A stretch of DNA of 45,826 bases from a virus: positions 1-45,826 of the IMG/VR virus record IMGVR_UViG_3300045243_000032; one strand, 5' to 3'. Of this stretch, positions 3,365 through 29,638 are shown in pieces. A program made the translations under genes and the position numbers. Each line of letters opens with the position of its first letter. Position 1 is the first letter of the stretch. The notes beneath the pieces were generated by a model, which did no database searches, was not told the DNA's origin, and saw only the letters and a list, made by a program, of their open reading frames with translations.

Positions 3365-3465
3365 AGGCACACCGTGATGCAGCCGTATTGGTCGCAAGTG
3401 GAGACACAGGAAGCCGCAAGAGCGGGCGTCCAAGTGAGGATCAGCTGCTGTAGAAAGATCAACAT
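3361..3465 (-). CDS. 34-residue peptide with signal-like N-terminus and four cysteines
   Basis: The first gene of the leftward unit. A strong SD (GGAGGG) sits 6 bases before the ATG. The sequence MLIFLQQLILTWTPALAASC begins with a hydrophobic signal-like stretch ending in ALAA-S-C; four cysteines follow in 15 residues. It could be an exported peptide, or a lipoprotein if the Cys is modified. It is coupled by GTGA to the 29-residue membrane peptide. No family recognised. Confidence 0.5.
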   Translation of the reverse strand: MLIFLQQLILTWTPALAASCVSTCDQYGCITVCL

Positions 3466-3504
3466 TGCTTCCCTCCATCTGATGGGAAGCATCCTTTCAT
3501 ATTT

Positions 3505-3520
3505 CTTGAAGGCCGTCAAG
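3505..3520. promoter_or_regulatory. candidate operator dyad upstream of the leftward unit
   Basis: CTTGAAGGCCGTCAAG is a 16-bp dyad with one mismatched pair, about 40 bases upstream of the first leftward gene. On the minus strand it contains TTGACG, a plausible -35 box, but the sequence 17 bases further is only a weak -10, so the promoter itself is not established. The surrounding 3480-3656 region is AT-rich for this genome and holds no supported gene. Confidence 0.35.
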
Positions 3521-3570
3521 AGCTATTTCAAAAAAAATGAATGCTGCGCCGCGCCCATCCAAAAAAAGCA

Positions 3571-3585
3571 TGGCCAAAATGGCCA
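3571..3585. promoter_or_regulatory. palindrome in the divergent control region
   Basis: TGGCCAAAATGGCCA is a short palindrome made of two TGGCCA half-sites, in the AT-rich spacer between the leftward unit (start 3465) and the rightward gene at 3657. It could be a regulator site. On the plus strand a TTGCAA (3587-3592) follows, with only a poor -10 17 bases downstream. Confidence 0.3.
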
Positions 3586-3656
3586 GTTGCAAATTATTTG
3601 AATGCTGTGATAGTTTGCGCCTATTGCGGCTTACACAGACCTGAACAGGGACAAAA

Positions 3657-3863
3657 ATGCGGGTAAAAAGAATAGCTTGGGGGCTGGTTATCCAGCTTGA
3701 GGAAGACTTGACCAGGGAAGAGGCGCAGGGAGTAATCGAGGAAATGCGGCGAAGGATCGACGATCTTTATGAGGAAAGGGCGAGGCCGGCCCTAGCGGTG
3801 CTCTCGACGATGGGGGCCACCTTCGCGGAAGAGGCCGAGACGTTCAGCAAAATCGTAGGTTAG
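3657..3863 (+). CDS. small helical protein opposite the repressor
   Basis: 68 residues, MRVKRIAWGLVIQLEEDLTR onward, with a long charged helix containing EEMRRRIDDLYEERARP. A weak SD (CAGGGAC) lies about 7 bases upstream. Its last 72 bases overlap the 3' end of the repressor gene on the other strand. Function unknown; its position suggests an early regulator. Confidence 0.5.
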   Translation: MRVKRIAWGLVIQLEEDLTREEAQGVIEEMRRRIDDLYEERARPALAVLSTMGATFAEEAETFSKIVG

Positions 3864-4100
3864 CCCTTCCGGCCGACCTCTATAAAGCCAATCAAGCGAA
3901 ACGCCCGGAATGCGCTGCACGATTTGTAGCGCAACATCGAGGCTTAACCGCTTGCCGGCTAGGAAGTTATGCCATCTTGGCTGTTTGATGCCGAGGCGCT
4001 TCGCCATGCGGGCGGAGGCGCCGTAGCTTTCGCCCTCGATCTTCGCCTGTAACAGGCGGAGGCGATCGGCCACACTCTGTACTGGCACGGTACCGCTCAC
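3792..4100 (-). CDS. phage repressor-like HTH protein
   Basis: 102 residues from a GTG at 4100; internal GTG codons could also serve as starts. Residues about 24-60 (SYGASARMAKRLGIKQPRWH, then NFLAGKRLSLDVALQI) fit a Cro/C1-type helix-turn-helix, and WLYRGRPEGL follows at about 71. There is no peptidase domain, so it is a short repressor rather than a LexA/CI type. It faces the rightward Cro-like gene at 4225 across a 124-base intergenic region, the usual layout of a genetic switch. The upstream SD is weak. Confidence 0.7.
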   Translation of the reverse strand: MSGTVPVQSVADRLRLLQAKIEGESYGASARMAKRLGIKQPRWHNFLAGKRLSLDVALQIVQRIPGVSLDWLYRGRPEGLTYDFAERLGLFREGGPHRREHR

Positions 4101-7485: not shown

Positions 7486-8160
7486 ATGAGCGTCCTAACC
7501 TACCAGCAACGCGCAGAACATTGGGAGTGGTGTCGTGACCACATCGATCGGCAATGCATCTGGCGAGCAACACCTGAATTTCCCTCAATTCCGGGCAAGG
7601 CCGCCGGCGCCCGCTACATCTGGCAATTCTATCTCCGGAGAGGAACCTTCCATGCTGATTTTAGCCGCCGCCTTGGGCTGCTTTTTTGGGATCATTTCGC
7701 TCCTGTGTTTGCTCAGCAGCCGTTCCAAATCGCGGCCTGTGTTCCCTCCGGACCGCCCATCGCCGTTTCCATACAGTCAGTGGCAAGGTCGCTTGGAATA
7801 AACATCAATGCCTTCCTTGTCCGACGATCGCCCAAAGCCTTTGGGGTTGATAACTGGTTCGACGGCCGTATGCTGCCCAACCTGCCGGTGCTCTTGGTCG
7901 ATGATATCGCGGCGAGCGCGCCTTTCCTTCTTCTCGCCGCTGCACGTGTGCGACAGAAGTTGCGATTGCCACTCCATTTCAACTATTTTTGCATCGTCAA
8001 TAAGGTTGGTCGCGGATTCGACAGAGCAAGCCAACACACCGAAAACTACCCTCCCGGCGAACTGGTGGCGCTGTATACGATGAACGATTTCTGCAAGTCG
8101 GTTGAGCAGTATCGCGACCGCTACGGCGACGAGCCGAAATGGGCAGGGATCGTGAAGTGA
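7486..8160 (+). CDS. orotate phosphoribosyltransferase-like protein, degenerate PRPP loop
   Basis: 224 residues with a PRTase fold signature, paralogous to the protein at 8361-9020. Shared blocks are HWEWCRDHIDRQCIWR near the N-terminus, IWQFYL, and the strand PVLLVDDIAAS at about 134-144. In active PRTases the VDD is followed by a Gly/Thr-rich loop (VxDDxxxxGxT) that binds PRPP. Here it is IAASAPFLLL, with no Gly or Thr, and ACVPSGPP replaces the usual GxExxG element. Catalysis is therefore doubtful; a binding role or dimerisation with its neighbour is possible. No strong SD was seen. Confidence 0.7.
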   Translation: MSVLTYQQRAEHWEWCRDHIDRQCIWRATPEFPSIPGKAAGARYIWQFYLRRGTFHADFSRRLGLLFWDHFAPVFAQQPFQIAACVPSGPPIAVSIQSVARSLGININAFLVRRSPKAFGVDNWFDGRMLPNLPVLLVDDIAASAPFLLLAAARVRQKLRLPLHFNYFCIVNKVGRGFDRASQHTENYPPGELVALYTMNDFCKSVEQYRDRYGDEPKWAGIVK

Positions 8161-8288: not shown

Positions 8289-8368
8289 TGTGGCTGTGGA
8301 CGCTCACAGGTCTGTTGCTGATGCTGGTCGTGTATTTAGAATTCACGCGAGTTGGCGCCGATGGATGA
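8285..8368 (+). CDS. 27-residue membrane peptide
   Basis: MMWLWTLTGLLLMLVVYLEF then TRVGADG: one hydrophobic helix with a short polar tail. The start is coupled by ATGA and the end overlaps the next gene by 8 bases (ATGGATGA). Placed between the two PRTase-like genes; function unknown. Confidence 0.5.
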   Translation: MMWLWTLTGLLLMLVVYLEFTRVGADG

Positions 8369-9020
8369 CGATCTTCGGAAGGAGTGGTTGCGCAAGGTCA
8401 ATAGCCCGAACGATTGGGAGTGGTGCCGCGTTTTCATCGATCACTATTGCATCTTCCGCTCCCCGCCGAATGAGTTCGTTCTAAGCGGGGCAGAGGGGAA
8501 CGTACAGGCATGGCAGTTTTATCTCCCGATCGCGGTACTCAATCCCGAGTTTGCGCAGCGCGTCTCGCGGCTATTCTGGGAGTGGTACGAGCCCCAGTGG
8601 TATGGATTGGACGGGCCGCCGTTTCAGTTATGCGGATGCGAGAGCGGCGGCTCGCTACTAGTGAGCGTACTACAGGCGTATGCCCCGCTTGCGGTGTCGG
8701 CGTTCATGATAAAGAAGGCTGCCAAATCGTACGGCTTGGGCAACCGGTTAGAGGGGATTGTTGATCCCGAGCTCCCCGTGCTGCTGGTCGATGACGTGAT
8801 CGGCAGCGGCAAGACCATGCGAGCGCAATGGCATCGCCTTGAGGAATTCGGGCTCAAACCCATGGGTTGCTTTGCCGTTGCAGCGTGCAAGGACGCGGCT
8901 CACCTTGGTCAAAAGCACAATCCGCATACGCTTTACAAGCCGTCCGACTTCGCCCGACTACACACGGAATACATGCGCAAATACGCCCGCGAACCGCAAT
9001 TCATGGGAACCGTGATATGA
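8361..9020 (+). CDS. orotate phosphoribosyltransferase-like protein
   Basis: 219 residues from the ATG at 8361, which overlaps the preceding small gene by 8 bases; a TTG nine bases earlier is less likely. VLLVDDVIGSGKTM at about 140-153 is the canonical type I PRTase PRPP-binding motif, and GCESGG at about 92-97 fits the OPRT substrate loop. N-terminal DWEWCRVFIDHYCIFR and WQFYL are shared with the degenerate paralogue at 7486-8160. It may transfer a phosphoribosyl group to or from a base in nucleotide salvage. The true substrate cannot be read from sequence. Confidence 0.75.
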   Translation: MDDDLRKEWLRKVNSPNDWEWCRVFIDHYCIFRSPPNEFVLSGAEGNVQAWQFYLPIAVLNPEFAQRVSRLFWEWYEPQWYGLDGPPFQLCGCESGGSLLVSVLQAYAPLAVSAFMIKKAAKSYGLGNRLEGIVDPELPVLLVDDVIGSGKTMRAQWHRLEEFGLKPMGCFAVAACKDAAHLGQKHNPHTLYKPSDFARLHTEYMRKYAREPQFMGTVI

Positions 9021-9070
9021 GCATGATGCCACCATACGATTGGCGCGATGGTTGGGGCACTCGGCCATGA
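9017..9070 (+). CDS. possible 17-residue coupled ORF
   Basis: An ORF of 17 codons (MSMMPPYDWRDGWGTRP) whose ATG overlaps the PRTase stop (ATGA) and whose stop overlaps the next ATG (ATGA). The perfect coupling is the only support; it may just carry ribosomes to the next gene. Confidence 0.3.
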   Translation: MSMMPPYDWRDGWGTRP

Positions 9071-9513
9071 CCGAAGCTGGCGGATACGACGAAGACAGCG
9101 TGCCGACTGGCGGCTCTGGCGCGCCCGATGAGGGCGACACCGGCGGCAAGGCCGATCAGCAAACCGCGCACTATCGCCGTGGCATGCCCGTCAAGAGTTG
9201 CGGCGTGTGCATGATGTTTACCAAAGAGGGCGACGGCAACGACGGCGGCTGCACGAAAGTTGACGGCACGATCAGCCCCTACGGCTTGTGCGATTACTAC
9301 GCCGAGGCGGCCAATCCGTTCGGCCCGACGCTCGGCCCGCAAGAGCGCGCCGTAGTCGATGAAATGAGCCAGAGCGGCCCCGATCAGTCGCGGTTTGCGT
9401 CCATGGGCGGTGGCGGGTCGCCCGCTCCCATGCCGGCGCCTCCCTCGGCCGAGCAGGCGCCTCCGGTAGCTGGCGGCCCGCCACGCATGCGCATCGGCAG
9501 ACAAGCATATTAA
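9067..9513 (+). CDS. Cys-rich HiPIP-like protein with C-terminal IGRQAY tag
   Basis: 148 residues. The N-terminal 35 are acidic and Gly-rich. The core has Cys45-x2-Cys48-x13-Cys62-x12-Cys75 within GMPVKSCGVCMMF and GTISPYGLCDYY, close to the cysteine spacing of high-potential iron-sulfur proteins, so it could bind an Fe-S cluster or zinc. A Pro/Gly-rich linker follows, and the last residues are MRIGRQAY, an ending shared with the proteins at 9683 and 10943. It lies at the border between early and structural genes, so a virion or assembly role is possible. Confidence 0.65.
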   Translation: MTEAGGYDEDSVPTGGSGAPDEGDTGGKADQQTAHYRRGMPVKSCGVCMMFTKEGDGNDGGCTKVDGTISPYGLCDYYAEAANPFGPTLGPQERAVVDEMSQSGPDQSRFASMGGGGSPAPMPAPPSAEQAPPVAGGPPRMRIGRQAY

Positions 9514-9530
9514 GTTCCCAAGCAGCAAGT

Positions 9531-9567
9531 CCCCCGGCCGGGATCGCAAATGATCCCGGTCCGGGGG
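9531..9567 (+). terminator. very stable hairpin, no T-tract
   Basis: A 15-base and a 16-base arm (9531-9545 and 9552-9567) pair around the loop GCAAAT with a single bulged base, giving a GC-rich stem of about 15 bp. It lies 17 bases after the stop of the gene at 9067. No run of T follows, so it may be an RNA-stability or processing element rather than a Rho-independent terminator. A second hairpin (GGCGAC/GTCGCC, 9616-9636) is in the same 169-base gap; nothing else is recognisable there. Confidence 0.5.
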
Positions 9568-9682
9568 CATCGAATAGGTGTTGGATGCGTCCGTTCACCC
9601 CCAACGACGGCTTTTGGCGACGTCTTCTTTGTCGCCTGATAGTCGCGCGCGGTATGTATCGCTTGCGACGGAAAAGGAAAAC

Positions 9683-10015
9683 ATGGGCTCGCTCCTAGAC
9701 TTGCTCGGCGGCTCTGGCGGACAAGCACCGCAGGGGCAACCGGGGATCAATCAGAACATGCTGAAAATGGGCATGGGCATGATGCAGCCCGGCGCGCAGG
9801 GAAGCCCATGGGGAGCGATGCCGCAGCAAATGCCGCAGCAAACTCCGCAACCTCCGCAACCTCCGCAATATCAGCCGCCATGCCGGCCGCCAATGCAGAA
9901 CATTCCCGGCATGCCGCAAGGCGTTCCGGGCATGCCCGGCGCCCCCGGCGGCCCCGGAATGCTCGGTATGAGCAATCCGCCCGTTCCGCTCTCGATCGGA
10001 AGGCAAGCCTACTGA
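9683..10015 (+). CDS. Pro/Gln/Met-rich protein with C-terminal IGRQAY tag
   Basis: 110 residues from the ATG at 9683, with an AAGGAAA SD. A short N-terminal region (MGSLLDLLGGSGG) is followed by low-complexity sequence rich in Pro, Gln, Gly and Met (QQMPQQTPQPPQPP, GMPGAPGGPG). It ends SIGRQAY. A longer in-frame reading from 9578 runs through the hairpin region and is rejected. Probably disordered; perhaps a virion component. Confidence 0.65.
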   Translation: MGSLLDLLGGSGGQAPQGQPGINQNMLKMGMGMMQPGAQGSPWGAMPQQMPQQTPQPPQPPQYQPPCRPPMQNIPGMPQGVPGMPGAPGGPGMLGMSNPPVPLSIGRQAY

Positions 10016-10476
10016 TGACCGAGCCGCGAACGTCTTGGTATTGGCTGGGATTTCTCAGCACAGGCCAAACCGATGCGCAATGGGTAAGCGATATCGGCGG
10101 ACAGACGGATATGTCCTATCCTTTACCCCTAGGAACAGACGTTCCCCGTCAATGCTATTTGCGCCATGTGTGGGTCGGATACGGGCTCGGTGCCGAGCCG
10201 ACCGGGCCTACTGAGCTATACGTTCTCCTTGATCCGGGCGGTGCCTTCTACAAGACCGGCAAGCCCCCAGGCGCAGAGGCCGGCGGTAAGAAATTGCAGT
10301 GCTCGGCCCTCGCCTACCACTGCGAAAACAACGGCATCCAACACATGCGCCATTATCAAATTGAGCCGGCGGTTTTCTTTAACCGTGATGCCAAGGATAA
10401 ACTTTGGTTCGGGCTCGATGGGGCTGATCCAATCGGATGGGGATGGCTCAATTTAAGTTGGACCTTAACCTACTAA
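10015..10476 (+). CDS. hypothetical protein, possibly structural
   Basis: 153 residues, starting MTEPRTSWYWLGFLSTGQTD with a TGATG overlap on the previous gene. Composition (many aromatic, Gly and beta-prone stretches such as KLWFGLDGADPIGWGWLNLS) suggests a compact beta-rich domain. No family recognised. It sits among the IGRQAY-tagged proteins but ends TLTY instead. Confidence 0.6.
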   Translation: MTEPRTSWYWLGFLSTGQTDAQWVSDIGGQTDMSYPLPLGTDVPRQCYLRHVWVGYGLGAEPTGPTELYVLLDPGGAFYKTGKPPGAEAGGKKLQCSALAYHCENNGIQHMRHYQIEPAVFFNRDAKDKLWFGLDGADPIGWGWLNLSWTLTY

Positions 10477-10485
10477 AGGCGTGAC

Positions 10486-10656
10486 ATGTTGGACTATCTG
10501 GAACGATTTGAGCGCGCGGATGCGATTGTGTCCAAAGACGGCACGAAAAAGTGGTGGTCGCATCGGCTCGGTCGCTATGTGACGGAGACGGAAACCAATG
10601 ACCGAGAAACCGAAGCCCTACAACCCCGACGACGACGATTGGTGGATTATCCCTGA
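10486..10656 (+). CDS. small hypothetical protein
   Basis: 56 residues, MLDYLERFERADAIVSKDGT onward, with KKWWSHRLGRYVTETETND. The last 20 codons overlap the start of another small frame at 10598, so one of the two ends is probably wrong. The first 40 residues look like genuine coding sequence. Confidence 0.45.
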   Translation: MLDYLERFERADAIVSKDGTKKWWSHRLGRYVTETETNDRETEALQPRRRRLVDYP

Positions 10657-10684
10657 AACCCAGAAGGAGAAAAGTTATGGCTGA
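10598..10684 (+). CDS. 28-residue acidic peptide
   Basis: MTEKPKPYNPDDDDWWIIPE and a short polar tail. It overlaps the end of the 56-residue gene and the first bases of the next (ATGGCTGA). Short acidic and aromatic ORFs of this kind do occur in phages. Support is composition and position only. Confidence 0.35.
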   Translation: MTEKPKPYNPDDDDWWIIPETQKEKSYG

Positions 10685-10946
10685 GGATCACTATGCCGAG
10701 GTTGAGGCAGCGGTGGACAAAGAGGTCCAGAAGGGCCATGCCGCCGGGAAGCACGATATCCCAGAGGTTCTAGCCATGCTCAGGGAGTTCGTGCAAAAAG
10801 CCCACGAAGCGGGTCAACGCGATCTGCCGTGGGTCGTGAAGGCTGTCGCGCTCCTTGAGAAGCTTGACCCGCAGCCTAAGCCGGCGCCGGACCCCAATCC
10901 CAAGGCGGAAGCCAAGGCGAAAGCCGAGGCGGAAGCCAAGCCATGA
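10677..10946 (+). CDS. hypothetical helical protein with Pro/Ala/Lys tail
   Basis: 89 residues with a good SD (AAGGAG). Two helical stretches (EVQKGHAAGKHDIPEVLAML and EFVQKAHEAGQRDLPWVVKA) look like a weak internal duplication built around K/A-H-x-A-G. The tail is made of repeats of EAKAKAE. Coupled by ATGA to the next gene. Confidence 0.6.
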   Translation: MAEDHYAEVEAAVDKEVQKGHAAGKHDIPEVLAMLREFVQKAHEAGQRDLPWVVKAVALLEKLDPQPKPAPDPNPKAEAKAKAEAEAKP

Positions 10947-11128
10947 AATCGATGGCCCCCGGCGGAGGCGGCCGCTTCCAAAAGCTCAAGGGCGAGCTCG
11001 CCTCTGAGCCCGGCGTCCGTAACCCCGGCGCGCTCGCGGCCTACATCGGCCGGAAGAAATACGGCGCGAAGAAAATGGGCGCTTGGTCCGCTCAGGGCCG
11101 CATGCGGATCGGGCGGCAAGCATACTGA
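10943..11128 (+). CDS. small basic Gly-rich protein with C-terminal IGRQAY tag
   Basis: 61 residues: MKSMAPGGGGRFQKLKGELA, then PGALAAYIGRKKYGAKKMG, and the ending MRIGRQAY. The block GGGGRF.KLK....P.ALAAYIGRKKYG is familiar from small phage proteins beside structural genes; no function is known to me. Coupled by ATGA upstream and by TGATG to the giant gene downstream. Confidence 0.65.
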   Translation: MKSMAPGGGGRFQKLKGELASEPGVRNPGALAAYIGRKKYGAKKMGAWSAQGRMRIGRQAY

Positions 11129-14100
11129 TGGACACCGGCGAACTACCGTTTGGGCCGTTCCAAACGGGCCAAAGTTGGCGGTCGCCTGACGAATGGAAGC
11201 CGATAAGACAGATCTGCGCGTATGGTGGCGGCGATGGCGGTGGTGGGGGCGGTGGCGGCGGTGGTGACAGCGGTGAAGGCGGCGGCGGCTCGGGCGGTGG
11301 GGCAGCGGGGGGCGGTGGTGGTGGTGCCGGTGCAGGCGGAGGCGGTGGTGCAGGTGCAGAAGGCGGAGGCGGCGCGGCTGGCGCAGGCGGTTCGGCAGGC
11401 GCCGGCGGCACCGAAGGAGGGGCGTCGGAAAGCGGTTCGGAAGGCGGCGCATCAGAAAGTGGCTCGGGAGGCGCAGAGGCAGGTGCAGGAGGTGCAAGTG
11501 AAGGTGGTGGCTCAGAAGGCGGCACTTCCGGCGCAGAAGCCGGCGGGAGCGCAGGTGCTGCCGCGGCGGCAGGCGCGGAAGGCGCTGGCGCTGCTGCTGC
11601 GGGCGCTGCTGCTGCGGCTGGCGCTGCCGCGGCGGCAGGATCAGGATCAGGATTTGGAGGCGGCACAGGTGCCGGCCAATCCGGCGCCGAGGGCCAAGGA
11701 CAATCCGGCCAAGGCCAAGCGGGGCAAGAGGGCCAAGGCACACAAGGTTTTGGCAGTTTCAGCGCCGCGCCCGCGAGCCCGGAAGGGCCAGAAGCGGCTT
11801 CGCCGGGATCGATCTCGCCATCAAGCCCGGATGTAGCGGCCGCCTCTACAGTCGGCGCGGCGAACCAAGCGGCATCTTTCGGAGCATCGTTCGGTGCTCC
11901 GGGCATGGGCCAACAAGGGCCGCCCGGTGTAGAGGGAATGCCGGCGGGGCAGACGGGGCCAGCGAATGCCGCTGGATTTGGTTTAAGCGCCGCGCAACCC
12001 GGAGCGCAGCAAGGTCCAGCGGCAGGCTTAGGCCCCGGCAACGCCGCGGGTATTGGTCTCAGCGCTGCACAGCCGGGAGCGCAACAAGGCCCATCGGCTT
12101 TTGGCCCATCGTCGCAGCAAGGTCCATCGCAATCGCCCGGCGCCTTTGGGCTAGGCGCGGGCTGGACCGGCAGCCAACAAGCGGCTCAGAGTTCGCTTGC
12201 CGGCGTTGGCCTGTCGCCGGGCATCGCCGCCTCCCCAATAGGGGCGCAGGCAGTCGCCGCTGCGGTCGCCGCCAACCCGGAAGCGGCCGCGCTCGCAAGC
12301 ACAGGATCGCTCACCGCGGCTGCACAGGCGGCCTTTGGCGCGGCTCCCGAGTTTGGCGCGACGCTAGGACCGAGCGCGTTTGACGTCGCCTCCATATCTG
12401 ATCCAACTCTCGGGACAACCTTCCAGCGCGACACGAATGCGGGGCAAGAGGCCGCAGCCGAGCGATCCTCGGGGGACACAAGCGCAGGCGGCGTCCTTCA
12501 AGGAATGGGCGCACTAGCACAGGCACAGGGAAATGACCAAACAAGATCGGCTATTAGTTCGGTTGGCCCGAATGTGGAAGGGTCGCCAGAAACCTACGGC
12601 GCTTTCGCTCCAAATGCAGGCGCAACAGCAGGCGATAGCGGAGGGTTTACTGAAAGCCTCCTCGCTAACCAGTGGGGCGGACAGCCAAGCCAAACTGGCG
12701 AGCAATACGCCGCGAACGTAGCAGGGCCGACCGCTTCGGATATGTTCGGGACATTCAATCCGAACAACCAAAATCCGAACGATCAATCGCGATACGGCGG
12801 CCCCGGCTCGCAACTCGCGAACGCCGCGAGCGGCCCCGAAACTGCTGAGATCACTACGCCGGCACAGCAAGAGGCCGCGGCCAAAGAGAGCGCGGCACCG
12901 ATCGAGCTCCCCCCCGTCACTGTGACGTCGGAGCCCGAGACGCCCGTAACTGGCGGCCAAGAGGGCACGGACAAGACAGAAAGCGCGGGCAAGACAGAGG
13001 GGGCGCCAGCGGCAACGCCGGCCTCCGTGACTGATGAGGAAAAGACGACAACGGCGCAGGAGGAAGGCGGCAAAAGCCTCCTCGACTACGTAAACCCGGT
13101 GCCTCCTGCGGAGGCGCGCGGCAAGGGCGATAGCGCCTTCCGGCAATCGGTCGAACGTGCAGCCCGCGAAGGGCTGTCTGCTACGGCGGACAATCCGAAA
13201 ATCACCGTGTATGACGGTTCCGGCGGTCGGATGGAGGGACCGAACAAGGACGCTTACGGCCAACCGCTCAACAGAACCGAAGACGTGATCGCCGGCAAGG
13301 CTCCGTATATCACCGTCGCGAGCGAGAAAGGCCCCGATGGCAAACCACTCTTGCGGTCGGGAACCGTTGACGTTTACGACCGAAAGACGGGACAGAATTA
13401 TACCCTGCCGTTTCAGACCCGCGACACTGGCAGCGCCTTCCCGCCCGGCACGACGCATGCTTATGATTTCGCGGTAAACAACCGCAACGAAGGGCGCTTC
13501 ACTTTCACCAATCCGCGTACTGAAGGAACGATCCAGACTGCCGGTGCACAGCGGCCGCCGGGCGACATCCCCACGCAGGCCGCCTCGGTTGTCACTCCTA
13601 GTCAGATTCCGGGTCTTGAGAATTATCGGCCGGGCGCAACCGATCGGTATGGCAATCTCGTTTTTACTAATCAGCCGACCACGGAAAAGGGTGCCACAAC
13701 TCGTGGAACGCTGACATTCGGCGATGTTAAGGTGCCGTATACTTCGGGGGGTAGCAGAAAGGGTGACGCGCCCGATGGAATTTTCCCGATACATGTTATC
13801 GGGCATGGTGGCACCGGCGAAAAATCGGGCCTTCCGGCGCAATATGATCCGATTGCGAGAGTCGGCGATCGCAGCGGGAACATGTACGATAGGAGTATTG
13901 GGCAGAACCGTAGCGCGATCGAAATCCATGCAATTCCGCCCGGCGATAAGACGACCGCCGGATGCATCGGAATTCCAGGGGGAGTGAACGGTCCTTATGC
14001 GGACCTAAAAAACGCGATTGTTGCGGCGCAGGGGCGCGGTGAGCAGCTTTACCTTATTCAAGAGAACCGCAGTATTCAGATCGTCACCGCGCCGCAACTC

Positions 14101-16422
14101 CAAGCGATGGCGGGCGGTCAGGGCACGGCGACGGCGGCCTATGAGCCGCCCACGTCGCCCTATCAAGCCGGCGAAATGCGGGGCGGTCAGGGCGTTTACA
14201 ACGCGCCCGAAGTCACCCCCGGCTGGCCCGGTTTGAGCGGAATAGGGGGCGCATATTCCGCTCAAGGGCAATTCCCCGCCGGTCCCGAGTTCCCGTCGCC
14301 ATTTGGCGCAGGTTGGCTTGCAGACCGCCAAATGGCAGGAAGGGGCGGCGAGTTCCCGCCCGGCCCGGCATTCCCGCCGACGATCGAGCAAGGCGAGCCC
14401 GGCCCGGCGAGCCCGAAAGGCGATGTCACGCAAGGGCCACCGCTTGAAGACATCGGCATCAACGATCCGCTCGAAAACGCCATAATTCAGTCGGGGCAGA
14501 GCATTCCGCCCGAGACGTGGCAGAGCGCATTAGACGCGATGCAACCCGCCCCTAACTGGAACGTTGGCGAGCAGCGGCAGGGCGTCGCCGGCAACTTTCC
14601 TGAAGGCCCGCTGATCCAAGCCCCCGGCCCTCCGGCCGAGACGCTACAGGGTTATCCTAGCGTTGCCGTCGAACGCGCCGGCCAACTGCCCTCGGCCATG
14701 GCCGAGCCTAGCGATACGTTTGGCGACCGCTTCGGCGGTGGCCTCGCGCAAGGCGCGATCAACATGGAGCAGCCGAGCCCCGATCAAAGCAGGGGCGACA
14801 CGTTTGGCGACCGTTTCGGTAATCTTCCGCCGGCTCAGGAACAGGCTCCCGGACCGCCGCTTGACCTCGCCCCGCCAAGCCCCGGACCAGGGCTAGAGCC
14901 GGGCCAAATCCTACAAAGCGGTCAGGAAGGACCGGGCGTCCAGACGCCAGACACGTTCGCCGATCGGTTTGGCAATCTGCCCCCTGCGGCCGAACAGACA
15001 CAACCTCCAACGGAGCCGCCACCGGCAGCACAACCTCCAACGGATAACGCCCCGTTCACGCCCCCGGACCTTGTGGCCGGTCCGAAGCCTCCGGGCGCAG
15101 CCCCGCCGCCCTCGGCGACCGACAGGGACCGGGCCGTTCAGATTTTCGACAAGGCCGGCGCTGCGGCGCAAGCCAAGATGTCCGCCGCAGACCGTCAGCA
15201 ATCGGAAAAGTACGCCAAGGGCGTCACCGATCAGATGAAGCAAGACCTTATGACCGGCAAACTCTCGCCAGAGGAGTTCATGGCGAAATCTGCGAACAAC
15301 GTCGGCGTCTACTTTATGGGGATCAAAATCAACGTAACCCCCGAAGACATCAAGTCAAATGCCGCCGACAAACTCGCGGGGTTTTCCAAAGACGTGCAGG
15401 CGGGGCGCGCAGAGTTCACGCAGGGGAAGGCCAACGACGCGGCCACGCAAAACGCATTCGTCCAATCGGTCGAGAAGTTCAATGCCGCAATGGGCGAATT
15501 CGAGACGAAAATGGGGGCGAGCGCAAGCGTGCAAGAGAGGGCCGGGGTGCCCCTAGCTGTTAACGAGCCCTCGCAGGGGCCGATGACCGTTATCCCCGGC
15601 ATTCCCTCCGTTCCGAATCCAGAGGCTTATCCGCCCGGCATTCACGAAATGCAAACTCCGCAAACTCCGCAAACTCCGCAAGTTCCGCCGTCCGCCATAC
15701 CAACGGCGCCCGGCGGTGGCGCGCCTGTTGCTGGTCCGGCCCCTCCTGCTGGCGCGGGCGCGCCTAACAATTTCGGCGGCGTTCCGGCTCCGTTCACTAG
15801 CGAAACGGCGTCCCCGGCATATGGTAGTGGTGTGTCTGCGCCAGTGCCGCCCGCGCAGGTTGCGCAGAGGTATCCGCAACAGGTCCGCCAAATCGCCATG
15901 CGCTTCCGTGTAGACCTCGCAACGGCCGCAGCCATCTTGGCTCAATCGCTTGCCGGTGCCCCAACTCCCCACGCCGCTATGGCTCAAGGCGGCCACGCCC
16001 GGTCGGGTGAGCCCATCCTTGTGGGCGAACGCGGCCCGGAGGTTATCGTCCCAAATGCCCCGAGCACCGTGATACCGGGCGACCCGCGCGAATTCGAGCG
16101 CATGTACGGGCAGATGCAAAACGCGCCGCAATTCGATCTCCGCGCCGCGCCGCCCGGTTTCTCTCCGCAACCCGCAGCATGGGATCGATGGCTCGCCGAT
16201 CTGCCGGAAAGCTCCAACGTCGTGGACCTGCGCACGCCAGAGCAAAAGGCGGAGGATAACAATAAGTGGCGCCTCACTTGGGATCCGACGCTAACGCGGC
16301 CGGCTCCGAAGCCCCTCAAGCAATTTCCGCCCGTGGTCGCACCCCCGCCAGCGCAGTCAACCCTTCCCGCTTGGCTGCAAGATCAGCAGAGCCAATGGAC
16401 GAAAGCAAAGGGCGGCCGCTAG
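11128..16422 (+). CDS. giant low-complexity virion-type protein with L,D-transpeptidase-like core
   Basis: 1764 residues from the ATG at 11128 (TGATG overlap); an in-frame start 45 bases earlier is not needed. After 30 normal residues comes a Gly-rich then Ala/Gly/Gln-rich region to about residue 450. At about 860-970 a globular part has IHVIGHGG (His889, His893), IEIHAI (His934) and TTAGCIGIPGG (Cys946), similar to the catalytic His and S-x-GC motif of YkuD/Tlde1-like L,D-transpeptidases. Three DTF[GA]DRFG repeats lie at 1196, 1224 and 1275, and a helical part at about 1350-1470. Near 1632 is LVGERGPEVIVP, typical of tail tape-measure C-termini. Probably an ejected or peptidoglycan-active virion protein. 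Confidence 0.75.
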   Translation: MDTGELPFGPFQTGQSWRSPDEWKPIRQICAYGGGDGGGGGGGGGGDSGEGGGGSGGGAAGGGGGGAGAGGGGGAGAEGGGGAAGAGGSAGAGGTEGGASESGSEGGASESGSGGAEAGAGGASEGGGSEGGTSGAEAGGSAGAAAAAGAEGAGAAAAGAAAAAGAAAAAGSGSGFGGGTGAGQSGAEGQGQSGQGQAGQEGQGTQGFGSFSAAPASPEGPEAASPGSISPSSPDVAAASTVGAANQAASFGASFGAPGMGQQGPPGVEGMPAGQTGPANAAGFGLSAAQPGAQQGPAAGLGPGNAAGIGLSAAQPGAQQGPSAFGPSSQQGPSQSPGAFGLGAGWTGSQQAAQSSLAGVGLSPGIAASPIGAQAVAAAVAANPEAAALASTGSLTAAAQAAFGAAPEFGATLGPSAFDVASISDPTLGTTFQRDTNAGQEAAAERSSGDTSAGGVLQGMGALAQAQGNDQTRSAISSVGPNVEGSPETYGAFAPNAGATAGDSGGFTESLLANQWGGQPSQTGEQYAANVAGPTASDMFGTFNPNNQNPNDQSRYGGPGSQLANAASGPETAEITTPAQQEAAAKESAAPIELPPVTVTSEPETPVTGGQEGTDKTESAGKTEGAPAATPASVTDEEKTTTAQEEGGKSLLDYVNPVPPAEARGKGDSAFRQSVERAAREGLSATADNPKITVYDGSGGRMEGPNKDAYGQPLNRTEDVIAGKAPYITVASEKGPDGKPLLRSGTVDVYDRKTGQNYTLPFQTRDTGSAFPPGTTHAYDFAVNNRNEGRFTFTNPRTEGTIQTAGAQRPPGDIPTQAASVVTPSQIPGLENYRPGATDRYGNLVFTNQPTTEKGATTRGTLTFGDVKVPYTSGGSRKGDAPDGIFPIHVIGHGGTGEKSGLPAQYDPIARVGDRSGNMYDRSIGQNRSAIEIHAIPPGDKTTAGCIGIPGGVNGPYADLKNAIVAAQGRGEQLYLIQENRSIQIVTAPQLQAMAGGQGTATAAYEPPTSPYQAGEMRGGQGVYNAPEVTPGWPGLSGIGGAYSAQGQFPAGPEFPSPFGAGWLADRQMAGRGGEFPPGPAFPPTIEQGEPGPASPKGDVTQGPPLEDIGINDPLENAIIQSGQSIPPETWQSALDAMQPAPNWNVGEQRQGVAGNFPEGPLIQAPGPPAETLQGYPSVAVERAGQLPSAMAEPSDTFGDRFGGGLAQGAINMEQPSPDQSRGDTFGDRFGNLPPAQEQAPGPPLDLAPPSPGPGLEPGQILQSGQEGPGVQTPDTFADRFGNLPPAAEQTQPPTEPPPAAQPPTDNAPFTPPDLVAGPKPPGAAPPPSATDRDRAVQIFDKAGAAAQAKMSAADRQQSEKYAKGVTDQMKQDLMTGKLSPEEFMAKSANNVGVYFMGIKINVTPEDIKSNAADKLAGFSKDVQAGRAEFTQGKANDAATQNAFVQSVEKFNAAMGEFETKMGASASVQERAGVPLAVNEPSQGPMTVIPGIPSVPNPEAYPPGIHEMQTPQTPQTPQVPPSAIPTAPGGGAPVAGPAPPAGAGAPNNFGGVPAPFTSETASPAYGSGVSAPVPPAQVAQRYPQQVRQIAMRFRVDLATAAAILAQSLAGAPTPHAAMAQGGHARSGEPILVGERGPEVIVPNAPSTVIPGDPREFERMYGQMQNAPQFDLRAAPPGFSPQPAAWDRWLADLPESSNVVDLRTPEQKAEDNNKWRLTWDPTLTRPAPKPLKQFPPVVAPPPAQSTLPAWLQDQQSQWTKAKGGR

Positions 16423-16704
16423 ATGGCAAAGACACCCCTCCAAATCGCATCCCTCGCGCGCTCGCACGCTGAAAGCGCGATCAGGACACTTGCTGCGATT
16501 ATGCACGAGCCGCGGGCGCCGTGGGCGTGCCGCGTGATGGCGGCGGAGGCATTGCTTGACCGAGGTTTCGGCAAAGCGCCGCTCACGATCCAAGGCGAAA
16601 TCGAGCATCGATACGTTATTGAGGTTCCCGCAGAATTGACGCGCGAGCAATGGATCAAGGAATACTCGACGCCGCTGATCGAGAACAACCCAGCTACACC
16701 GTAG
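16423..16704 (+). CDS. putative terminase small subunit
   Basis: 93 residues starting directly after the stop of the giant gene. The sequence IASLARSHAESAIRTLAAIM followed by PWACRVMAAEALLDRGFGKA is the pattern of small proteins next to large terminases; they bind packaging-site DNA through a helical N-terminus. The last 55 bases overlap the terminase large subunit gene. The family call rests on pattern and position. Confidence 0.65.
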   Translation: MAKTPLQIASLARSHAESAIRTLAAIMHEPRAPWACRVMAAEALLDRGFGKAPLTIQGEIEHRYVIEVPAELTREQWIKEYSTPLIENNPATP

Positions 16705-18125
16705 GCTGGTCCGCGCGCGGAAATCCCGCGCAACTCGCCCTTCTAAAGTGCCCCATATTCGAAGTGTTCTTTGGCGGCGCGCGTGGCGGCGGCAAAACCG
16801 ACGGCATGCTCGGCGAGTGGGTTAAGCACGCCGATCGCTATGGCGAGAACGCCATCGGGTTGATGCTACGGCGCACGCGCACAGAGCTTGTCGAGACGAT
16901 CGAGCGGTCGCGCGTAATATATGCGCCGATGGGATGGAAGTACCATGAAACCGACAAGATGTGGCGGGCTACCAACGGTGCCCGACTTCGCTTCGCTTAC
17001 TTGGAAAGAGACGCTGACGCAGAGCTATATCAAGGGCACAGCTACACTCGACTCTACGTCGAGGAGATTGGGAATTTCCCTAATCCGGCACCTATCTTCA
17101 AGCTTATGGCAACTCTGCGTTCTGGCGCTGGCGTGCCTGTGGGTTTTCGCGCTACTGGTAATCCTGGCGGACCAGGCCATCAGTGGGTTAAGGCACGATA
17201 CATCGACCCTGCGCCGCTCGGCAACAGAGTAATTCGCGACAACGACACACACCTTGAACGGGTCTATATCCCATCCAAGGTCGATAACAACTCCGCGCAC
17301 ATCGACGTTGAAAACTACAAACGGCAACTCCGCGCGAGCGGAAGCAAAGAGCTTGTTGCCGCGTGGCTCGACGGCGATTGGAACGTAACGCTAGGAGCAT
17401 TCTTTGACTGTTGGAACACCAAGCGACACGTTGTGCGCCCGTTTGAAGTGCCCAAAGATTGGTTGCGCTTTCGCTCGATGGATTGGGGCTCAGCTTCGCC
17501 TTTCTCCGTTGGATGGTGGGCCGTCGTTCAAGATGACTTTGCAACGGATGCTCGAACGCTGCCCCGTGGCTGCATCGTACGCTATCGAGAGTGGTACGGA
17601 TGCAAGCCCGGACAACCAAATACCGGGATAAAGCTTCACGCCGAGGCTGTAGGCGAGAGCATCGCCGCTAGGGAAAAGAAGGATGACAAAATCTCATACG
17701 GAGTGCTTGATCCTTCCGCTTTCGCCGAGGATGGCGGCCCCTCCATCGCCGAACGTCTCGCCCGAGGATCAGGCAACAAAGTCCACTTCCGCCGCGCGGA
17801 TAACACGCGGGTTGCGCGAGTGGGAGCAATCGGGGGATGGGACCAGTTTCGCGCGCGCCTTGTGGGAGACGTGGCCGATCGACCAATGATCGTCGCGTTT
17901 TCGACGTGCATTGACTCGATCCGTACTATCCCGTTCCTGCAACACGATCCCGACAAGCCCGAAGACCTGATGACCGACAGCGAAGACCACGCTGCGGATG
18001 ACTGGCGATATGCCTGCATGTCGCGGCCGTATGTGCCGACCCGACCTGAACCAAAACCCAGCAGCGTGACCGGCTACAAGCGGGTGCGCGACACTGCAAC
18101 GCCCGGAGATTGGAAGACGTATTAA
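16650..18125 (+). CDS. terL: terminase large subunit
   Basis: 491 residues. The packaging ATPase has a Walker A motif GGARGGGKT (42-50), a Walker B LYVEE (135-139) and a coupling segment GNPGG (170-174). The nuclease domain has the acidic residues of a RNase H fold: SMDWGSASPF (Asp278), GVLDPSAF (Asp354) and HAADDWRY (Asp450/451). It translocates and cuts phage DNA at the portal. The start at 16650 lies inside the small-subunit gene; the sequence before Walker A (WSARGNPAQLALL) is of normal length for the family, so no later start is needed. Confidence 0.95.
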   Translation: MDQGILDAADREQPSYTVGWSARGNPAQLALLKCPIFEVFFGGARGGGKTDGMLGEWVKHADRYGENAIGLMLRRTRTELVETIERSRVIYAPMGWKYHETDKMWRATNGARLRFAYLERDADAELYQGHSYTRLYVEEIGNFPNPAPIFKLMATLRSGAGVPVGFRATGNPGGPGHQWVKARYIDPAPLGNRVIRDNDTHLERVYIPSKVDNNSAHIDVENYKRQLRASGSKELVAAWLDGDWNVTLGAFFDCWNTKRHVVRPFEVPKDWLRFRSMDWGSASPFSVGWWAVVQDDFATDARTLPRGCIVRYREWYGCKPGQPNTGIKLHAEAVGESIAAREKKDDKISYGVLDPSAFAEDGGPSIAERLARGSGNKVHFRRADNTRVARVGAIGGWDQFRARLVGDVADRPMIVAFSTCIDSIRTIPFLQHDPDKPEDLMTDSEDHAADDWRYACMSRPYVPTRPEPKPSSVTGYKRVRDTATPGDWKTY

Positions 18126-20344
18126 TGGCGACCACAAACGGCACTGGCTATAGCCAGCAAAGTAACAGCGATGTCAACGGCCCCCCGGTATCCGGCGGGG
18201 CCGTTGATGCTGATACGGGCGGCGAAGATGGTGCATGGACGCTGGAACAGTGCGTCGATTCCTACCTCACCTATCTGATGAGCAAGCGTGCGGAGATCGA
18301 CGAGCAGCAACAGGCTCGGCGCTATCGGCATGGTTCTCACTGGACGGCCGAGCAAATCAAGATTTTAAACGATCGCAAGCAACCCGTCGTCACCTCTAAC
18401 CGGATCGGCCGCAAGATCGACGGCATTGTCGGCTTGGTCGAAAAGCTACGCCAAGACCCGAAAGCGTATCCGCGCACGCCGGAGCATCAGGAGGGCGCCG
18501 ACTTGGCGACCGCCGCGCTGCGCTATGTGATGGATGTCAACCGCTGGCCACACCAAAAGGCGATGGTTGCGGAGAAAGCGGCCGTTGACGGCATCGGCGG
18601 CATCGAGCTCGACCTAAAGGAAATGCCCCCGGCACAGGGCGACGATAACCCGATGGCGAACAACGGGAAGCCCGACTATGACGTTGTATTCCGAGTAGTC
18701 GATAACGACGGCTTTTTTTACGACCCGCGCAGCTACGCCAACGATTTCGAGGATGCCCGCTACCAAGGAGTCGGCAAGTGGGTCGATCAGGAAATGCTCA
18801 AGGAAATGCTGCCGGACAAGGCAGACGAGATCGACAGCGACGCATCGAGCCAAAACGCTAGCTACTTATCGACCGACTCCGACCGTGACATTCGGTGGTT
18901 CCAGAGCAATCCAAGCGGCAAGATCAAACAGGTCCGGCTGATTGATGTTTGGTATAAGAGCAAGGGCAAATGGCGGTGGTCGCTATTCACGCGCGCGGCA
19001 ATCTTGAAGCAAGGCGAATCTCCGTTCTACGACGACGAAGATAAGCAAATCTGCCGATATCAAATGTTCTCCGCGCAGGTTGACCACGAAGGCGATCGAT
19101 ACGGCTTCCCGCGCAACTTGATGTCAGCGCAGGACGAGATCAACCAACGCCGATCGAAGGCGCTACATCTTAACAATAGCCGCCGCATCCGCGCGACGCG
19201 CGCCGCGATTGCCGACGATGACGTGGAAGCTCTGCGCCGCGAGGCCGCACGGTCGGACGGCATAATCGTCTCGAACACATCCATTGAAGAAATTCAATTT
19301 GATGACTCGGCCAAGCAAGCTCAGATGATGGCCGAGATTGAATTCCTAAAAGATGCCAAAGCCGAAATCGAGAACTTCGGGCCTAATCCAGCGTTGCTCG
19401 GCAACGCGGGCATGGGGGAAAGTTCGGGCAAGGCCATCGCATTGATGCAGCAAGCCGGGGTCGCCGAACTTGGCCCCTACATGCTCAACCTGCGCGCATG
19501 GACATTGCGGGTTTACCGCGCGCTATTCAACGCGGTGCAAAAGTATTGGACGAACGAGCGGTGGATCAGGGTTACGGACAATCAGGGCGTGGAACAATAC
19601 GTCAAGATCAACGCGACGCAGTTTCACCCGGAAACTGGCATGCCCACGATGGTCAACGTCATCGGCGAGCTCGACGTTGATATCATTCTGGACGAAGGCC
19701 CCGACACGATCACGATGATGGCCGACACCTATGAGGCGATCAGCCAAGCGCTTCCCTCCGTCGCCAAGATACTGTCGCCCCCGCAAGCGCAGGCGGTCAT
19801 GGAAGTGCTGATCGAGACGAGCCCGTTGCCAGCCGATGTCAAAAAGAAATTCCGCGATGCCGGCCAGCAGCAACCGCAGCAAGGACCGTCACCGGAAGAA
19901 ATGAAGGCGCAGGCCGAGGTAGCGATACTGCAACAGAAAAACCAGGGGCAGCTACAATTGAAGCGCGAGAGCGCGCAGATCGACGCCCAAACCAAGCAAT
20001 CAGACGCCGCAGCCGAAATACAGATCGCGCGCGAGAAGGCCCAAAACGAAATGGAAATTGAGAAAATGAAGGCCACGAACCAGATGGAAATAGAGCGCCA
20101 TAAAGGGCTTGAGGGCGCGAATATAAAATCTCAGTTGGCCTTGCACGAAGCAAGTCTACAGCCCCCGCCGGAGCCCGAACCTGCGCCCAAGGCGGCCGAA
20201 CCGACACCCCCGCCGCCTGCGCCGCCGCCCGATCATACGCCCGCCATTCTTGAACTCATTAAGCACTTAGGCAGTCAGAAACGGCCAACCGGCCTACAGC
20301 GCACCGGAAGCGGGATGCGCGTTGTTTATGATGGGGAGGGCTGA
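18125..20344 (+). CDS. portal protein, P22-like
   Basis: 739 residues from the ATG overlapping the terminase stop (TAATG). The N-terminal part (HWTAEQIKILNDRKQPVVTS, then RIGRKIDGIVG) and central part (DNDGFFYDPRSYANDFEDAR, MFSAQVDHEGDRYGFPRNLM) are characteristic of the large portals of podoviruses related to P22. Residues about 585-690 form a long Gln/Lys/Glu coiled coil followed by a Pro-rich stretch, a barrel or tail-like extension. It forms the dodecameric DNA entry ring and contacts terminase and adaptor. Confidence 0.9.
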   Translation: MATTNGTGYSQQSNSDVNGPPVSGGAVDADTGGEDGAWTLEQCVDSYLTYLMSKRAEIDEQQQARRYRHGSHWTAEQIKILNDRKQPVVTSNRIGRKIDGIVGLVEKLRQDPKAYPRTPEHQEGADLATAALRYVMDVNRWPHQKAMVAEKAAVDGIGGIELDLKEMPPAQGDDNPMANNGKPDYDVVFRVVDNDGFFYDPRSYANDFEDARYQGVGKWVDQEMLKEMLPDKADEIDSDASSQNASYLSTDSDRDIRWFQSNPSGKIKQVRLIDVWYKSKGKWRWSLFTRAAILKQGESPFYDDEDKQICRYQMFSAQVDHEGDRYGFPRNLMSAQDEINQRRSKALHLNNSRRIRATRAAIADDDVEALRREAARSDGIIVSNTSIEEIQFDDSAKQAQMMAEIEFLKDAKAEIENFGPNPALLGNAGMGESSGKAIALMQQAGVAELGPYMLNLRAWTLRVYRALFNAVQKYWTNERWIRVTDNQGVEQYVKINATQFHPETGMPTMVNVIGELDVDIILDEGPDTITMMADTYEAISQALPSVAKILSPPQAQAVMEVLIETSPLPADVKKKFRDAGQQQPQQGPSPEEMKAQAEVAILQQKNQGQLQLKRESAQIDAQTKQSDAAAEIQIAREKAQNEMEIEKMKATNQMEIERHKGLEGANIKSQLALHEASLQPPPEPEPAPKAAEPTPPPPAPPPDHTPAILELIKHLGSQKRPTGLQRTGSGMRVVYDGEG

Positions 20345-27391: not shown

Positions 27392-28390
27392 ATGGTTGAC
27401 GAAAACAGTGCTGTACCTACCGAAAGTGCCGACGAAGTAGTCGTCACCGATCAAGACCTTTACGACCATGCGATGAGTAACGAGCCCTCCTCGCCGCCGA
27501 CACCGGAGGCGCCCCCCGCGCAAGCGGAGAGCACACCGGCGGAGGCAACGGGGCAGGCCCGCGATGACAAAGGCCGGTTCGCGGCGAAAGACGTTGAAGC
27601 CGCCCGCGACCAAGCCAAGGCCGCACAAGCCGCCGCGCCACAGCCGCAGCCGCAAGCGCAAGCGCCGCAAGCGCCCAAGCCGCAGCCGCAGCCCAAGGCG
27701 GAGGACCATCGCGTACCGTTGCGGGAATTGCTGACTGAGCGGGCCGAGCGTCAAAAGCTCGAAACGCAAGTCCAGCAGTTGACGGAAGCTTTCAACTACC
27801 TCCGCCAGAACGGGCAGATGCCGCAGCAAGGCGCGCCGCAAGGCCAGCCGCAGCCGCCGCCAGCCTCGAATCCGCAACAGTTGTTCGAACAGCCCGACCA
27901 ATATCTGCAACAGAACGTCATCACTCCCCTGCAATCGTGGGGAGCACAAGAAATGATGAAGATTAAAGAAGGCATCTCTCGCGACTACGCCAACGACAAG
28001 TACGGCGAAAAAGTCGTGAATGACGCTTTTGAAGCCATGAAAAAGGTTCGTTACTCGCCGGATGGCAACTTTGCCTACCAGCAAATCATGGCATCGGGCA
28101 ATCCCTATAAGTCGCTGGTCGAATGGCACAAGAAACAACGCGCGCATGAAGCAATCGGGGCCGATCCTGATGCTTGGTTGAAACAGAAGCAAACGGAATG
28201 GCTCAACGATCCCGCCGCGCAGAAAGCCATGGTCGAACTCATACGTAGGCAGCAAACGTCAGCCCCCGCGGCTCAGCCGCCCAATGTCAGCTTGCCGCCC
28301 TCGCTGTCTTCCATTCCGGCCGCATCGGCCCGCGTGGAACCGCTCGGCGACCTGTCTGATGCGAGTTTGTTTGCGCACGCAATGAAATAA
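27392..28390 (+). CDS. scaffolding protein
   Basis: 332 residues. An acidic N-terminus (TESADEVVVTDQDLYDHAMS), a Pro/Gln/Ala-rich linker, then helical segments (LTERAERQKLETQVQQLTEA; ISRDYANDKYGEKVVNDAFE; NPYKSLVEWHKKQRAHEA). No globular enzyme motif. This composition, size and position directly before the capsid gene are those of podovirus scaffolding proteins, which guide procapsid assembly through a helical C-terminus. SD AAAGGA. Confidence 0.8.
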   Translation: MVDENSAVPTESADEVVVTDQDLYDHAMSNEPSSPPTPEAPPAQAESTPAEATGQARDDKGRFAAKDVEAARDQAKAAQAAAPQPQPQAQAPQAPKPQPQPKAEDHRVPLRELLTERAERQKLETQVQQLTEAFNYLRQNGQMPQQGAPQGQPQPPPASNPQQLFEQPDQYLQQNVITPLQSWGAQEMMKIKEGISRDYANDKYGEKVVNDAFEAMKKVRYSPDGNFAYQQIMASGNPYKSLVEWHKKQRAHEAIGADPDAWLKQKQTEWLNDPAAQKAMVELIRRQQTSAPAAQPPNVSLPPSLSSIPAASARVEPLGDLSDASLFAHAMK

Positions 28391-28474: not shown

Positions 28475-29638
28475 ATGGCCGTCTCAGTAATCCAGACCAA
28501 CAATAAACTGATCAAGTTCACGCAACAGATCGGGCGTGAATTTGTTCGCGAGAACATGTTCTCGCCCTATCAGGGTGAGGCCCTTAACGCCATCATCCGC
28601 ATTCGTAATGAGTTGAAGTCCGGCGGCGAGCAGATGAATATTCCGCTCGTCACGCGCTTGCAGGGTGCTGGCGTTTCCACCGGTACGCTGGTCGGAAACG
28701 AAGAATCGATCGACGACTACGGCATGCGCATATGGCTCGAATGGGCTCGCCACGCCGTCACCACGACCAAAGCCGAGAGGCAGAAGGACTCCGCTGATAC
28801 CTTCGGCGAGGCGAAGCCGCTTCTCAGCGATTGGGCCAATGAGTTGCGGCGTGACGAGACGATCGCCGCATTCATGGCGCTTCCCTCGGAGTCGCAGCCG
28901 TCAGCGGGTGTGCGGGTCAATGGTATTCAGTACGACCTTGCCACTACCGCGCAGCTTAATACGTGGCGTACCGATAACGTCGATCGTATCCTGTACGGTG
29001 CGGCAACCTCGAACTCGGCAACCGACCACGCCACGTCGTTGCTTAACGTGGACACGACCGCTGACAAGTTCACGGCCGCGAACCTCTCGCTCCTCAAGCG
29101 CATGGCGGTCAATGCTCTGCCGCACATTCGTCCCTACCGGACGGATGATGGTTACGAGTATTACGTCGCCTTCGCTGGCGTGAATCCGTTCCGTGATCTC
29201 AAGCTCGATCTTGCGACCACCAATAAGGACGCACGACCGCGCGAACAGTCCGGCCCGTACGGCGCGACCAAAAATCCGTTGTTCCAAGACGGCGATCAGA
29301 TTTACGACGGCGTGATCGTCAGAATGATCCCGGAAATCTCTCGGTTCGTGTCGAACGTGTGGACCTCTCTGAAAACGGCCGGCGCATCGAGCGCTCGCGT
29401 TGAGCCCGTTTTCCTCTGCGGTCAGCAAGCCTTGTCGTTCGCGATCGGACAGATGCCTAAGCCGACGTTCCGCGCCGAAGATGATTACGGATTCATCACC
29501 GGCACGGGCATCGAGATGGCCTACGGCATCGGGAAAAACTTCAAGAAAATGAAGTATCCGCAACTCTCGACGCAAACCACTAGCTCACTCATTCAGTGGG
29601 GCGTCGTGACCGGGTTCTACGCTTCGGCGTCCGACTAA
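28475..29638 (+). CDS. major capsid protein, N4-gp56/DUF4043 family
   Basis: 387 residues with an AAGGAG SD. The N-terminus (QQIGREFVRENMFSPYQGEA), the P-domain-like segment NIPLVTRLQGAGVSTGTLVG and IDDYGMRIWLEWARHAVTTT fit the N4-gp56 family of HK97-fold capsid proteins. Further supporting blocks are RPYRTDDGYEYYVAFAGVNP and the C-terminal SLIQWGVVTGFY. It forms the icosahedral shell, assembled with the scaffold encoded upstream. Confidence 0.9.
   Translation: MAVSVIQTNNKLIKFTQQIGREFVRENMFSPYQGEALNAIIRIRNELKSGGEQMNIPLVTRLQGAGVSTGTLVGNEESIDDYGMRIWLEWARHAVTTTKAERQKDSADTFGEAKPLLSDWANELRRDETIAAFMALPSESQPSAGVRVNGIQYDLATTAQLNTWRTDNVDRILYGAATSNSATDHATSLLNVDTTADKFTAANLSLLKRMAVNALPHIRPYRTDDGYEYYVAFAGVNPFRDLKLDLATTNKDARPREQSGPYGATKNPLFQDGDQIYDGVIVRMIPEISRFVSNVWTSLKTAGASSARVEPVFLCGQQALSFAIGQMPKPTFRAEDDYGFITGTGIEMAYGIGKNFKKMKYPQLSTQTTSSLIQWGVVTGFYASASD

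Follow-up and report, generated by a model that had tools for sequence, protein, structure and literature searches.

A C-terminal hexapeptide common to three unrelated, neighboring phage proteins, and a parallel ending in a distantly related phage group

Three unrelated proteins encoded side by side in the genome of an uncultured phage end exactly in the hexapeptide IGRQAY. The DNA analyzed, hereafter called the window, spans 45,826 bases of viral sequence and encodes a terminase large subunit (16650-18125), a P22-like portal protein (18110-20344), and a major head protein (28475-29638), all on the plus strand. We give a probability of about 50% to the reading that IGRQAY is a docking tag, through which one partner gathers the carriers during head assembly and brings them to the virion, and that a different ending, common to neighboring proteins in another phage group, is alike in purpose.

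The three copies of IGRQAY lie at 9493-9510, 9995-10012, and 11108-11125 on the plus strand and are directly followed by the stop codons TAA, TGA, and TGA, respectively. A degenerate pattern search over the whole record returned these three forward matches and none in reverse, which confirms the exact endings described in an earlier note on this DNA. Among the 42 predicted genes, 2.9e-10 triples with a common terminal 6-mer would be expected by chance, and the first and third proteins (9067-9513 and 10943-11128) share as many as nine residues, RMRIGRQAY. The copies are encoded by ATC GGC AGA CAA GCA TAT, ATC GGA AGG CAA GCC TAC, and ATC GGG CGG CAA GCA TAC. Pairwise, these 18-base ends differ by 4, 4, and 3 synonymous changes and by no non-synonymous change, while about 22-26% of random substitutions in them would be expected to be silent. 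The ending is conserved at the protein level and is not a copied piece of DNA, as the note had also held; the codon differences rule out DNA-level duplication as its sole explanation. When the last nine residues were removed, the three bodies showed low-complexity similarity only (Gly/Pro runs; best E = 0.03). Full-length homology was therefore rejected, in line with the earlier view that the carriers are unrelated.

The first carrier (9067-9513, plus strand) is an acidic protein of 148 amino acids, with a HiPIP-like Cys4 domain, a Pro/Ala/Gly-rich linker, and the ending RMRIGRQAY. It had been described as Cys-rich, which is accurate as to the cysteines and incomplete as to the rest, since they form the pattern CGVC-x13-C-x12-C ahead of the linker. 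The Pfam family HIPIP matched below threshold (E 0.069, and E 0.016 for the homologue in phage locus L109), and single-sequence searches found no relatives. We call the body HiPIP-like because of a profile, A4, made from four sequences (the window protein and its phage relatives), which recovers HiPIP-like cellular proteins with Tat signals: it found small cellular proteins in 17 of 392 Bradyrhizobium-family genomes (E 1e-3 to 3e-6), and most of those inspected combined a twin-arginine-like leader with the HiPIP cysteine pattern. By sequence, the body thus appears to resemble the high-potential iron-sulfur proteins (HiPIPs). Unlike the cellular matches, the window protein, which starts MTEAGGYDEDS, has no twin-arginine (Tat) signal. 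HiPIP-like Cys4 phage proteins without an export signal were seen in the window (9067-9513), L109 (13108-13470), L175 (7236-7535), and L187 (2708-3031).

The second carrier (9683-10015, plus strand) has 110 amino acids, is rich in Pro, Gly, Gln, and Met over nearly its whole length, is probably unstructured, and ends in PLSIGRQAY; it matched no family. Because of this composition, and of the Pro/Ala/Gly linker in the first carrier, two of the three tags probably terminate flexible chains. The third carrier (10943-11128, plus strand) is a basic (pI 11) protein of 61 amino acids of the form GGRF..ALAAYIGRKKYG.., ending in RMRIGRQAY. AlphaFold2 models it as three helices, with the last residues dropping to a pLDDT of 40, and a Foldseek search with the model gave no useful match. 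It belongs to a widespread phage family with 242 matched relatives, of which the best 80 were kept, and ALAAYIGRKKYG is a near-invariant motif in an alignment of 43 members. The sampled relatives stop a few residues past the third helix and lack IGRQAY, so that the hexapeptide is an addition here, a module attached to a member of at least one widespread family.

The third tagged gene overlaps both of its neighbors, and the tagged genes form a tight cluster just upstream of the terminase and portal genes. Its stop codon overlaps the start codon of a gene for a 1764-amino-acid, low-complexity protein (11128-16422, plus strand), and the two genes are therefore probably in a common operon. The body of the 1764-amino-acid protein is extremely rich in Gly, Ala, Gln, and Pro, and it had no match in Pfam, PHROG, or PDB sequence searches. 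We take its residues ~890-950 (HAIPPGDKTTAGCIGIPGG) to recall L,D-transpeptidases, and its motif LVGERGPEVIVP presumably recalls tape-measure proteins. A putative scaffold, assigned by position (27392-28390), ends in LFAHAMK and does not carry the tag. For the product of 10015-10476, a single-sequence search found no relatives; no RNA families were found around the tagged locus and no tRNAs in the window. Adjacent genes at 7486-8160 and 8352-9020 encode proteins with similar starts (EWCRDHID and EWCRVFID) and similar ends, which are probably paralogues; the second matches a phosphoribosyltransferase domain.

The idea that related phages carry endings of the form [IV]G[RK]QAY was not borne out, either in the relatives of the 61-amino-acid protein or in wider scans. 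The TGA-terminated form of the tag pattern occurred in 15 viral contigs, in 3 of which an ORF of at least 25 amino acids ended there; these matches were chance-like and revealed no plausible shared setting. None of the 392 Bradyrhizobium-family genomes contained IGRQAY (the search of the window with the same pattern served as a positive control), and tblastn of the tagged proteins against cultured phages found no relatives. As a common ending, IGRQAY was found in one genome only, that of the window. Its absence as a shared ending from the other phages searched means that it is no conserved family signature, and a widely conserved phage tag was rejected on the same scans.

A parallel group of phages has a common ending of its own. 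It comprises L109 and some 60 loci from metagenomes or prophages, in which as many as five neighboring, unrelated proteins end in about 20 residues of the form LAKxGxISxKxMxK. The terminase of L109 is 51% identical to that of the window, and the group is only distantly related to the window phage. In L109 itself, the HiPIP-like homologue and four unrelated neighbors all end in LxKxGxISxKxM-like tails. These tails were first noticed by eye; an unbiased tail search over the loci fetched until then picked out L109 and the window, and its remaining clusters were compositional, mostly of Arg/Pro/Ser-rich ORFs. A profile of a 446-amino-acid carrier of the group led to 67 loci, across which a tail HMM gave 171 coding-strand matches that reached 14 bits or more, and 0 such matches on the opposite strand; in 96 comparison loci with 6,366 ORFs, its scores stayed at or below 8.8 bits. 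Because the seeds of the HMM came from the same loci, its matches arise partly by construction and the counts serve as description. Independent evidence comes from the unbiased detection of L109 and from the strand and locus controls, which show specificity. After removal of duplicate loci, 154 tagged ORFs remained in 63 loci, falling into eight groups of mutually dissimilar bodies, and 47 of the 63 loci had 2-5 different tagged bodies. Of the 14 loci showing both terminase and portal, 11 had all their tagged genes between the two, and in 38 of 38 loci with a portal only the tagged genes stood upstream of it. One member of the group is a prophage in Bradyrhizobium sp. YR681 (L227), which encodes two or more tagged proteins and whose contig is apparently identical with viral locus L173.

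The 446-amino-acid carrier is predicted to have an ATP-grasp, GAR-synthetase-like fold (AlphaFold2 pLDDT 88.7; Foldseek E 2e-17). Its tail was modeled, in a single predicted model, as two short helices around a GxIS turn, whose G, I, and S do not vary across 26 sequences. The gene (13571-14911 in L109, with relatives in L160-L226) stands directly upstream of the portal gene in about 50 loci, and the protein had no match among cultured phages.

The two groups meet in the HiPIP-like protein, which ends in the L109-group tail in five loci, plus L230, and in IGRQAY in the window. One body with the ending of either group argues for an exchangeable docking tag and a common partner; nothing else speaks as strongly for endings that are interchangeable modules common to a set of proteins. 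The interpretation in the earlier note is thus supported in part, as to an appended module with a counterpart in a parallel group. Its expected [IV]G[RK]QAY pattern in relatives is not supported, and the receptors that it proposed (an assembly factor, a protease, the portal, or the giant protein) are candidates. Marine contigs offer a possible third case, judged from their sequences. Two neighboring proteins in each of L057 and L063 have a common 22-residue ending, RGVGxAxxGFGxAKYSDKMY, on Lys-rich proteins (3426-4094 and 4021-4695 in L063), and L065 and L045 have looser versions of it. Remote paralogy is the alternative here, as the bodies of the marine pair align weakly over much of their length (E 9e-16, a value that includes the tail and unmasked Lys-rich sequence).

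Several known systems resemble these endings in part. The capsid targeting sequence (CTS) of phage T4 is N-terminal and is processed by the prohead protease. It is short and common to diverse internal proteins, which it brings into the head (PMC3012670). IGRQAY is likewise a short sequence common to diverse phage proteins, with a putative role in virion entry, and differs in that all three copies stand at the extreme C-terminus. No protease family was matched among the window proteins scanned, which were a part of all ORFs. We take the sequence likeness of PLSIGRQAY to the cargo-loading peptides (CLPs) of encapsulins to be slight. In encapsulin systems, a short and usually C-terminal peptide is common to unrelated cargo proteins encoded beside the gene for an HK97-fold shell (PMC7355545). 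IGRQAY shares with the CLP that it is short, C-terminal, and common to several unrelated proteins. However, the scanned window proteins gave matches to no encapsulin family; the phage has its own major head protein, and binding of IGRQAY to a shell protein is putative. The scaffolding protein of P22 binds coat through its C-terminal region. That coat-binding end belongs to one protein, whereas IGRQAY belongs to three, and the putative scaffold of the window is untagged. The SHOCT domain (PF09851) is a short C-terminal module, a pair of short helices, found on many unrelated proteins (PMC3581485). It resembles the tail of the parallel group, while IGRQAY is much shorter; PF09851 matched none of 11 records (the window and ten of the parallel group) at E <= 1, and identity with SHOCT was rejected. 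Gathering unrelated proteins through one short peptide is thus a known principle; a version of it in phages that is C-terminal, lineage-specific, and exchangeable would be new. A limited search of the open-access literature found no published description of phage protein sets with a common C-terminal ending.

If IGRQAY is a docking tag, each of the three carriers would expose it at its free C-terminal end, which in two of the carriers follows a linker that is probably flexible. A common partner, probably encoded by the phage, would gather all three during head assembly, and the gathered carriers would enter or attach to the virion; in the parallel group, the predicted helical hairpin of about 20 residues would serve the same kind of purpose. 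We infer a common receptor for the tagged proteins, with the portal, the coat (the major head protein), the scaffold, or the adjacent giant protein as candidates. Incorporation into the virion is the likeliest use of the tag, a reading based on gene position and analogy: it is favored by the location of the tagged genes of both groups among the head genes, and by the way in which T4 and encapsulins load proteins through short shared peptides. The tag sequences of the two groups are unrelated, and we infer the equivalence of their roles from the shared context and the one shared protein family. Against a docking tag count the finding of IGRQAY in one genome only and the fact that relatives of the 61-amino-acid protein lack any such ending.

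Among the other readings, an enzyme rather than a virion component might recognize the ending. It could be a protease, a chaperone, or a modifying enzyme, of the host or of the phage, which degrades or matures the protein or modifies it at the C-terminal tyrosine. The tag stands exactly at the C-terminus with Tyr last, several tails of the parallel group also end in Tyr (MGEVY, RGRDY, HLGNY), and an ATP-grasp-like enzyme is among that group's tagged proteins. Yet this ATP-grasp-like protein itself bears the tail, we noticed no homologue among the predicted genes of the window, and location in the head gene block suggests a late structural role, so that we regard recognition by an enzyme as unlikely; we know of no degron pattern in IGRQAY. 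Rather unlikely, too, is that the ending is a homotypic association motif, by which the tagged proteins would bind each other in one complex with no separate receptor. The predicted hairpin of the parallel tail (one model) is reminiscent of SHOCT, for which oligomerization has been proposed, but the single published test of this did not support it (PMC3581485), and IGRQAY, six residues with low pLDDT in the 61-amino-acid model, falls short of the size of a typical self-association domain.

The tag might also mimic a motif inside the third carrier. IGRKKY (11045-11062, plus strand), a near-invariant core motif in the 43 aligned members of the 61-amino-acid family, is the best non-tag match to IGRQAY among the 12,172 hexamers of the predicted proteome, and the score of IGRQAY against this protein is equaled by 1.2% of shuffled tags. 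The resemblance is a weak hint that tag and motif may address one partner; should the other two proteins use the tag to bind the partner of IGRKKY, it would be a mimic. The match is short, however, its significance is moderate, and the tail searches turned up no tagged companions for relatives that have IGRKKY, which leaves mimicry improbable. We consider it very improbable that the ends lack a function and owe their spread to duplication or recombination at the 3' end of a gene. Copying is a plausible origin for the longer RMRIGRQAY of two carriers, but a minimum of six changes, all of them synonymous, separates the three copies, and the peptide has therefore been under selection since any copying.

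Returning to the docking tag, a more far-reaching version of it is tentative: in some tailed phages, lineage-specific, exchangeable C-terminal entry tags may load accessory proteins into the particle for delivery to the host, and lineages would differ in the tag but have at least one cargo in common. The accessory set would then comprise an iron-sulfur protein, an ATP-grasp enzyme, and small basic proteins. If the tag directs proteins into the particle, accessory cargo would be predictable from sequence, any protein that bears a common ending could be taken as a candidate for the virion or for injection, and the tag would be a C-terminal counterpart of the T4 CTS. The parallel group makes the idea testable in a laboratory strain of Bradyrhizobium that bears a prophage. 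The analysis also brought to light phage-encoded HiPIP-like and ATP-grasp-like proteins, for which the limited open-access search found no description.

Two further gene pairs of the window are worth recording. Directly after the head genes, 30187-31518 and 31545-32360 encode proteins with a methyltransferase-like C-terminal part and a weak glycosyltransferase match. The adjacent proteins encoded at 34694-35557 and 35567-36619 have similar hydrophobic endings, AGVVIITEFLTS and AGIIIVEEFYS.
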